Source of the DNA: Clostridia bacterium
Lineage (GTDB): Bacteria; Bacillota; Clostridia; Christensenellales; Borkfalkiaceae
DNA: 5,083 bases
Direction of reading: 5' to 3'
NCBI GenBank assembly: GCA_017631725.1
Contig: JAGBSS010000251.1
Span: 1 to 5,083, forward strand
Part shown: piece by piece, positions 4,769 to 5,083 of the stretch
Numbering within the stretch: position 1 is the first letter of the stretch
Layout of the letters: the number at the start of each line of letters is the position of its first letter
Made by a program: the position numbers and the translations under genes
The notes under the pieces: generated by a model
Databases searched by the model: none
What the model saw: the letters and a program-made list of their open reading frames with translations, nothing else
What the model was told of the DNA's origin: nothing

Positions 4769-4802
4769 AAAACTCGACTTTTAATAAGTCGAGTTTTCTT
4801 TT
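4769..4802 (+). terminator. Rho-independent terminator after mazG
   Basis: A perfect 12-bp stem AAAACTCGACTT (4769-4780) with AAGTCGAGTTTT (4786-4797) has a 5-nt TTAAT loop and continues into TTTTCTTTTAT. It closes the glnN-mazG unit and separates it from the promoter that follows. The 37 bases between the mazG stop and this stem hold nothing I can recognise. Confidence 0.9.
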
Positions 4803-4818
4803 ATCAATACAAAAATGC

Positions 4819-4847
4819 TTGATAAAGTTGTTTATAAATGCTATAAT
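4819..4847 (+). promoter_or_regulatory. Sigma-A promoter of the structured leader/ncRNA
   Basis: TTGATA (4819-4824) is followed after 17 nt by a consensus TATAAT (4842-4847). The start expected 7 nt later is G4854, exactly the first base of the long closing helix of the RNA below. This coincidence supports both calls. Confidence 0.78.
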
Positions 4848-4853
4848 AATTTT

Positions 4854-5051
4854 GCCAAATCAATTTAATATATGTGTGGAAAGGTGTATTTTCTTTTTAG
4901 GGAATATATTTTTGTTGCTATGTCTATATTAGAATTTGATAAAATGCAAATTCCTACAATGTAGATATGGTAACACCTTTCACATTAAATTGGTTTGGCG
5001 ACTATCGGAGTTTGCGTTTTTGTGCGACAACTTCGGTTGTCGCACTTTTTT
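4854..5051 (+). ncRNA. Highly structured RNA, family not recognised: attenuating leader or stand-alone ncRNA
   Basis: From the predicted start G4854 the RNA can form a 16-bp helix (4854-4869 with 4984-4999, one G-U). It continues past a 6-nt bulge as 4876-4878/4981-4983 and, after a one-base bulge, as 4880-4887/4973-4980. Inside is a second long hairpin: 4916-4930 with 4958-4972 (15 pairs, four G-U), a 1x4 internal loop, 4932-4938 with 4947-4953 (7 pairs) and the 8-nt loop ATAAAATG. The 5' side carries a one-sided 28-nt bulge (4888-4915). A 22-nt linker then leads to the intrinsic terminator. I find no diagnostic core of TPP, SAM-I, purine, FMN, lysine, T-box, ZTP, THF or c-di-GMP elements. 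Because a gene begins 28 nt after the terminator's T run, with no room for another promoter, a cis-acting leader is favoured. A 6S-like free RNA is the main alternative. Folding was done by eye. Confidence 0.6.
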
Positions 5052-5056
5052 ATTTT
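5022..5056 (+). terminator. UUCG-capped intrinsic terminator ahead of the last gene
   Basis: A perfect 10-bp GC-rich stem GTGCGACAAC (5022-5031) with GTTGTCGCAC (5036-5045) is capped by TTCG and followed by TTTTTTATTTT. It is the most stable short hairpin in the window. It stands between the structured RNA and a strong ribosome-binding site, the layout of a transcription attenuator. The pentamer GCGAC of its 5' arm also occurs at 4998-5002 and could weakly compete for the 3' arm. Confidence 0.9.
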
Positions 5057-5078
5057 ATCAAACTTTTGGAGGTCTTTT

Positions 5079-5083
5079 ATGAA
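5079..5083 (+). CDS. Start of a gene cut by the right window edge (product unknown)
   Basis: Only ATGAA is visible. It is called because GGAGG (5068-5072) sits 6 nt upstream, the best Shine-Dalgarno spacing in the window. In several Firmicutes the gene after mazG encodes the DNA-binding protein HU, whose sequence often begins Met-Asn-Lys. ATGAA is compatible with that, and with any Met-Lys or Met-Asn start, so the product is not assigned. Its transcript must pass the structured RNA and the terminator. Confidence 0.55.

Follow-up and report, generated by a model that had tools for sequence, protein, structure and literature searches.

What does a long, strongly folded RNA do when it stands between a promoter-like sequence and the next gene, as it does at the end of a contig of a Clostridia bacterium? 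The stretch of DNA analysed here, called the window below, has 5,083 nt and is the entire contig C15 of a 1.09-Mb assembly of 254 contigs, which is 80% complete. An earlier note, made from the letters of the window, had proposed for this region a new attenuation leader, a leader by which one ribosomal or DNA-binding protein regulates its own gene, or a divergent 6S-type RNA. Our analysis of this copy and its relatives leads to the first of these in a wider form: with a probability of about 0.64, the window holds a portable 5'-leader cassette, one of many copies, whose mutually exclusive RNA helices make it act as a transcription attenuator. The parts of the cassette follow each other in the order of predicted promoter, rod-shaped RNA of ~150 nt, 17-nt linker, intrinsic terminator, Shine-Dalgarno (SD) sequence and start codon, and the linker pairings as well as the multi-copy and portable nature of the cassette go beyond what was read from the single copy.

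In the window all of these parts lie on the forward strand. The promoter scan places a -35 box TTGATA at 4819..4824 and a -10 box TATAAT with extended TG at 4842..4847, and the two, with a 17-nt spacer between them, score 11/12 as an extended-TG sigma-A-like promoter, which is presumably in use. Further upstream the sequence scan finds an intrinsic-terminator-like hairpin (4769..4797; CTCGAC...GTCGAG and a T run), possibly an insulator of the cassette; a like hairpin also stands 5' of the copies L003, L014, L018, L022, L004 and L005, and it is absent from some copies checked, e.g. L002 and L008. Seven nucleotides past the -10 box, G4854 opens the RNA by pairing with C4999, just as the earlier note had it, and the structured RNA claimed at 4854-5051 is borne out: this segment folds at -74.8 kcal/mol with a z of -10.5 against 200 dinucleotide shuffles, none of them as stable, and promoter, terminator, SD and ATG are all present.

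The helix sizes first read for this RNA stand only in part. The outer helix P1, which joins 4854..4867 to 4986..4999 (MFE and covariation), was rightly recognised, but it has 14 bp rather than 16; inside it, where a further 11 pairs and a hairpin of about 22 pairs had been counted, the MFE structure has P2 (5+5 bp, 4874..4884 with 4976-4985), P4 (18 bp, 4913..4930 with 4958-4975) and an apical hairpin of 7 bp with an A-rich loop (4932..4953), in which GAATTTG (4932-4938) pairs with CAAATTC (4947-4953; 88.2% of cells paired). What had been taken for a one-sided bulge of 28 nt is mostly a separate 10-bp side hairpin in the MFE structure, P3 (4885..4908), so that the rod has a three-way junction. 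At the border of P1 and P2 a conserved AATA (4867..4870) corresponds to columns 24-27 of an alignment, A1, of 76 copies (A 66/76, A 76/76, T 71/76, A 72/76).

Between the rod and the terminator lies the 17-nt linker (5000-5016). The terminator scan gives an intrinsic terminator with its U tract at 5022..5051 (stem 5022-5045, 10 pairs, 4-nt UUCG loop), which is followed by the SD sequence GGAGG (5068..5072) and an ATG at 5079-5081; the gene it starts (5079..5083) is truncated by the contig end and, because it runs off the contig, cannot be named. As far as sequence tells, the predicted terminator is placed between promoter and gene, as an attenuator requires. Four strands would take part in the switch, namely strand 1, the apical 5' strand given above; strand 2, the apical 3' strand TGCAAATTCC (4945..4954; alignment and pair counts), an alternative partner of the linker; strand 3, the linker itself; and strand 4, the terminator loop with the adjoining ends of its 5' and 3' arms, AACTTCGGTTG (5029..5039; pair counts), the antiterminator partner. 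The pair counts assign two registers to strand 3: in the antiterminator register CTATCGGAGTT (5002..5012) pairs with 5029-5039, with a U5003 x U5038 mismatch in this copy, and in the apex register GGAGTTTGCG (5007..5016) forms 10 pairs, including 2 G-U, with 4945-4954. Two MFE runs on the same 198 nt differ, one showing the terminator and the other (ViennaRNA 2.7.2) the linker paired with the terminator, and therefore both states are close in model energy.

Regarding known RNA classes, the conserved cores of the common riboswitches had not been recognised in the window, and the Rfam covariance search agrees with this. It gives ten matches in the window up to E = 10, all below the gathering score and none overlapping 4854-5051; in 28 related loci no match at gathering score falls on the element, a scan of 20 of them matching RNase P, tmRNA and tRNA away from the copies, and of four sub-threshold matches in the others one, Atu_C8 (24.9 of 50 bits), overlaps the copy in L196. 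A known riboswitch, a T-box or another Rfam leader class was rejected for want of a match at gathering score. 6S RNA is a rod of ~190 nt whose two ends pair with each other; it has a promoter of its own and a large central bubble that mimics an open promoter. The element resembles it in its length of ~190 nt, its closure by paired ends and its own predicted promoter, but differs in having a three-way junction, a linker that pairs with the terminator and a gene directly behind. What is more, the 6S model RF00013 finds 0 matches in this 80% complete genome (it has matches in 5 of 14 control genomes), and the MFE structures, which are single-sequence folds, have the P3 branch and no large central bubble; a divergent 6S-type RNA was therefore given up.

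Searches of CC-licensed PMC papers listed no title or abstract opening that describes the element. ROOL, GOLLD and OLE are large ornate bacterial RNAs that form homo-oligomeric complexes (PMC12286853); the element is likewise a structured bacterial RNA, and the name of ROOL points to the rumen, but it has ~200 nt and is a gene leader for which an oligomer is a possibility. A study of human microbiomes gives 508 candidate structured RNAs within 25 bp upstream of genes (PMC8040213); their position is alike, and the element may overlap with them.

The element is not restricted to the window. In the same genome BLASTN finds five further places, and the covariance model R1, built in this analysis, finds seven copies including the window. 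Across the genus a BLASTN match (E <= 0.001) occurs in 31 of 44 genomes, one of which (G015) matches on the promoter side only. The exact linker/terminator pattern is present in 86 of 301 genomes and 13 of 18 genera of the family sample, in 11 of 121 genomes of the order sample and in 6 of 118 at class level, all three counts including the own genome, and the reversed-pattern control gives 0 matches in these three samples; R1 finds none in 100 other genomes of the phylum sample under stricter filters, which lose weak matches. In named genomes at least 118 stretches carry the pattern, some of them on contigs that the genus search had also returned. Among the matches listed, the titles are those of Clostridia, Clostridiales, Oscillospiraceae and similar Bacillota, nearly all MAGs, and many refer to the gut of goat, sheep, deer, cattle, yak or rabbit; Pumilibacter intestinalis CLA-AA-M10 also carries a copy (L135). 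In the plasmid collection no match was found. As for the surroundings, in two genomes a tmRNA gene (L015:427-781 and L020:1881-2233) lies 5' of a copy, at ~730 and ~160 nt, and in L197 a second, degenerate-looking copy is 271 nt away from the first.

For comparison among copies, 151 distinct ones were extracted, selected for P1 and a -10 box, with identical element sequences counted once. The region closed by P1 has a mean z of -8.9, with z < -5 in 149 of the 151 (40 shuffles each), and the MFE structure has exactly two hairpin loops in 124 of them. In A1, whose 76 copies were chosen from the 151 by dissimilarity and a length of 130-185 nt, 98.7% of the P1 cells (columns 5-11 x 208-214) are paired and 5 of its 7 pairs show two-sided changes, so that this helix swaps letters among copies yet retains its pairing, and P1 together with the apical hairpin is paired in 94.0% of 1280 cells, against 27.5-48.9% when the strands are slid. 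Since the copies were selected for P1, these counts on P1 are partly circular; free of that selection is a test on 123 pattern matches not chosen on P1, of which 8 were omitted as too near the locus end. All 115 evaluable matches have a -10-like box (at least 4/6) 3-10 nt 5' of the outer helix, and all 115 combine such a box with a P1 in which 8 or more pairs are contiguous, compared with 114 of 2086 random anchors. The compensatory changes on which the earlier note had made the structured RNA depend are thus present, in P1 as well as in the two linker helices described below. P2, P3 and P4 were judged from single-copy folds rather than from column covariation, and in the RNAalifold result on a MAFFT alignment the rod did not appear, its stems probably being insufficiently aligned. 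It should be kept in mind that the copies share kinship, so that the shuffle tests overstate significance.

Comparative counts carry the pairing of the linker with the terminator (3:4). At its variable position, the 5' half of the linker can pair with the terminator in 128 of 143 copies (A-T 63, T-A 45, T-G 15, G-C 4, G-T 1), whereas the maximum in 20,000 shuffles is 90; 8 of the 151 copies without a readable variable base were omitted, the count uses a corrected anchor in place of a misplaced one on TTTTTCGGTGCG, and the U x U mismatch of the window copy is one of the 15 unpaired cases. Over the 130 copies with a regular linker (21 irregular ones omitted), the register of seven base pairs is paired in 890 of 910 cells (97.8%), against a shuffled maximum of 854 in 5,000 and 11.5-51% when slid, and when this register is lengthened to eleven positions, up to where the terminator 5' arm ends, 10 or more of them pair in 126 of the 130 copies. 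When linker and terminator are folded alone, 144 of the 151 copies have an MFE structure in which 4 or more pairs join the two.

The second partner of the linker is the apex (2:3). The helix of its 3' half with the apical 3' strand was the single one that RNAalifold returned, unprompted, on the MAFFT alignment, and it is paired in 98.6% of 759 cells, against 17-51% when slid. Cells with two-sided changes number 11, where shuffles average 1.9 and 0 of 500 reach 11; the number of two-sided pairs is 3, which 19 of 500 shuffles reach. After shuffling of letters among copies the pairing still averages 97.3%, so that most of the support for 2:3 is conservation plus the 11 two-sided cells. In two columns U-G is the commonest pair (50/76 and 64/76), which suits pairing in RNA better than in DNA. 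Nine extra R1 matches outside the alignment offer a further view: seven keep 10/10 pairs, several with altered letters, and in L193, L198 and L200 both strands are changed and pairing is kept; L196 keeps 9/10, and in L199 a clear partner was not found. Copies of the L003 type keep just 8/10 pairs. In five genomes that have both letters at the covarying position, with the own-apex partner taken as the best match, a linker C goes with a G in its own apex (7 copies) and a linker T with an A (15), and this agreement within each copy argues for pairing in cis or in a homodimer rather than between different copies. Because the 2:3 and 3:4 registers both use GGAGU, they are mutually exclusive; the linker pairings are thus two exclusive, covarying helices, and a conserved alternative helix competes with the terminator.

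Model energies do not tell which way such a switch would be set. In the stretch of linker and terminator by itself, over the 151 copies, the terminator has a mean of -11.1 kcal/mol if the linker is kept unpaired and the antiterminator one of -11.6 kcal/mol if the terminator 5' arm is kept unpaired, the antiterminator value being no higher than that of the terminator in 85 of the 151; a shorter antiterminator duplex, at only -7.8, had made the terminator look clearly stronger, but the fuller comparison does not. As the two are nearly equal, no direction of the switch follows from energy. For the duplex of linker and apex the mean is -13.6 kcal/mol, and given the similar stability of antiterminator and terminator, an apex that binds the linker could shift the choice towards termination. 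Regarding geometry, the rod has ~41 bp and the linker begins a few nucleotides from its base. In 121 of the 151 copies (30 whose MFE structure lacks a clear two-branch junction or apex were omitted), the length of P1+P2 correlates with that of P4 at rho -0.53, and their sum stays near 41 bp with an sd of 3.95 bp, although the anticorrelation may partly reflect ambiguous placement of the junction in the MFE structure; the distance from apex to linker is 56 +- 4 nt, range 45-67, in 143 of the 151 (8 without clear apex omitted). A simple fold-back at the three-way junction, which predicts the opposite of this anticorrelation, was rejected, and the 2:3 helix may instead be formed through bending, partial opening or a homodimer.

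Taken together, a new attenuation leader with a gene dependent on read-through, as the earlier note had suggested among its three choices, is supported by the missing Rfam match, by the terminator preceding an SD and a start codon in most copies (counts below) and by the exclusive covarying helices. By the logic of the pairings alone, with the apical hairpin 1:2 closed the linker would pair as 3:4, the antiterminator, and transcription would enter the gene (ON); when the apex captures the linker (2:3), the terminator would form and transcription would stop near 5046-5051 (OFF). This order of states, and with it a default state, is what we infer, and a signal would come in as a factor, be it ligand, protein or RNA, that shifts the apex between 1:2 and 2:3 and so sets the gene.

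Terminator-type riboswitches and T-box leaders have a folded domain and exclusive antiterminator and terminator helices, and occur in several copies before different genes. The element, also a multi-copy 5' leader with a folded domain and such a choice of helices, differs from them in that the main partners of its linker are the loop and 3' arm of the terminator, of whose 5' arm just the last bases take part; moreover, each copy brings a promoter-like box at the base of the hairpin, and the stems keep their pairing but little sequence. Trp-type attenuators alternate four strands as 1:2, 2:3 and 3:4. Four alternating strands are found here too, but 3:4 is the antiterminator and 2:3 goes with the terminator. 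A leader peptide, or attenuation coupled to translation, was considered since the GGAG of the linker is SD-like and precedes a GTG of the terminator, but no leader peptide was seen: the frame of the gene relative to the terminator is random (43/43/35 of 121), and 14 of 121 are fused in-frame.

How the copies sit before genes bears on the next possibility, that the element is a structured small RNA that stands by itself, has a promoter and a terminator of its own and acts either in trans or on RNA polymerase, and that the gene is reached by leaky read-through. A promoter-like box and a terminator in each copy examined speak for it, as do tandem copies without intervening gene, ~280-350 nt apart (three in L036:1376-2243, others in L030:1544-2019 and L062:2160-2694), in which every copy has its -10-like box and terminator, the stems of neighbours differ, and a gene stands directly behind the last one only. 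However, 121 of 146 copies have an SD with start codon no more than 90 nt past the terminator (median 26 nt; 5 of the 151 omitted for having less than 90 nt of downstream sequence), while random positions have one in 279 of 1245, and the 25 of 146 copies that have no gene start within 90 nt include some of the tandem ones; covariation of the linker with the terminator is also unexpected for a plain terminator. We regard the small RNA as unlikely, though the best placed of the alternatives to the attenuator.

The genes that follow are diverse. Downstream proteins with starts within 150 nt, cut at 420 aa, number 132 (14 of 146 omitted for lack of a start or for being shorter than 35 aa), and they match 65 Pfam models, some overlapping, which lends no support to a leader through which a single ribosomal or DNA-binding protein would regulate its own gene; they were also scanned with PHROGs and PADLOC. 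Among the models listed are BspA-type LRR (20), zinc ribbon (6), EcoRI-type methylase (5), MazE-like (4), AMP-binding (3) and Rho_N (2), and these genes give the impression of accessory, not housekeeping, functions. In the genome of the window, the genes behind the copies seem from their sequences to encode a lipoprotein, a protein ending in a zinc ribbon, a SHOCT-like protein and C5-methyltransferase-like and adenine-methyltransferase-like proteins; a further frame after a copy resembles the adenine-methyltransferase-like one. The window itself begins with the end of a gene (3-887, forward) for a repeat protein, presumably BspA-type leucine-rich by its repeat pattern, a kind that is elsewhere the commonest target of the RNA. 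At 1002-1982 on the reverse strand the window encodes a 326-aa protein that starts at the ATP-pyrophosphatase part, which we assume to be GuaA-like and seemingly without the glutaminase domain; divergent perfect or near-perfect sigma-A-type promoters at 2010-2061 and 2109-2138 separate it from a gene presumed to be glutamine-synthetase-like.

Near-identical RNAs have different genes behind them in L003/L014/L018 (three species), L008/L010/L043 and L022/L042, and in alignments the similarity ends at about the U tract of the terminator; near-identical cassettes before non-homologous genes mean that the unit is portable. In another set, L005, L006, L034 and L196, all before methyltransferase genes, the copies share the sequence GGTGCGACT from terminator to start, followed by an A-rich GGAG, and have similar P4 stems, CATACTCCCATT, as if a methyltransferase-associated subtype travelled with the methyltransferase.

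Portability would also agree with an unregulated insulated promoter cassette, in which an upstream terminator, a strong promoter, a stabilising 5' hairpin and a partial terminator fix a low expression; the upstream terminator-like hairpin common to several copies and the near-equal model energies of terminator and antiterminator fit as well, but two conserved competing linker pairings are needless for a fixed attenuator, and we think it somewhat less probable than the small RNA. A shade less probable again is processive cis antitermination like that of phage HK022, whose put RNAs fold in the nascent transcript and bind the polymerase so that terminators are ignored. A rod-like RNA at the extreme 5' end would suit this, and three viral contigs that share genes (L174-L176) hold a copy 5' of a zinc-ribbon protein gene, just before phage genes adjoining genes taken to be terminase-like; in the phage collection an unannotated human-gut faecal phage record, L201 (MT835503.1), gives a partial match. 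Against it, alternate pairing of the linker with apex and terminator would be left unexplained, and most stem letters vary freely among copies. A mobile element at the level of DNA, a MITE or an integron attC-like folded site whose palindrome merely looks like RNA, is very improbable, since for all its long palindrome, near-identical multiple copies in new contexts and patchy occurrence (6/118 in the class sample), U-G pairs are frequent and the order of promoter, hairpin, terminator and SD is kept, and the P1 3' strands GTTTGGC, GTGTGAC, GTACGCC and GTATGTC do not fit the attC rule of a GTTRRRY core in the 3' arm.

The cassette is an RNA family with strong covariation, outside the Rfam release searched, in mostly uncultured gut Clostridia. 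Multi-copy riboswitch regulons read a signal shared across their copies, and recurrence of the element within genomes before unrelated gene families would likewise point to a shared signal. We put forward as a tentative proposal, one we hold to be a good deal less probable than the attenuator itself, that the promoter-sensor-terminator module may represent a new class of self-contained, transplantable riboregulators that, in gut Clostridia, pass from gene to gene and among chromosomes and phages; the apical loop would read a single intracellular signal to which accessory genes (surface LRR, DNA methyltransferases, MazE/AbrB-like, SLOG-like) all respond, and two rods may join in a head-to-tail homodimer. 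The cassette would be a ready module for tests in a heterologous host, and the copy of Pumilibacter intestinalis should make the question accessible to experiment. Since the whole switch appears to move in one piece, it could help to explain how accessory genes of these bacteria quickly come under control.
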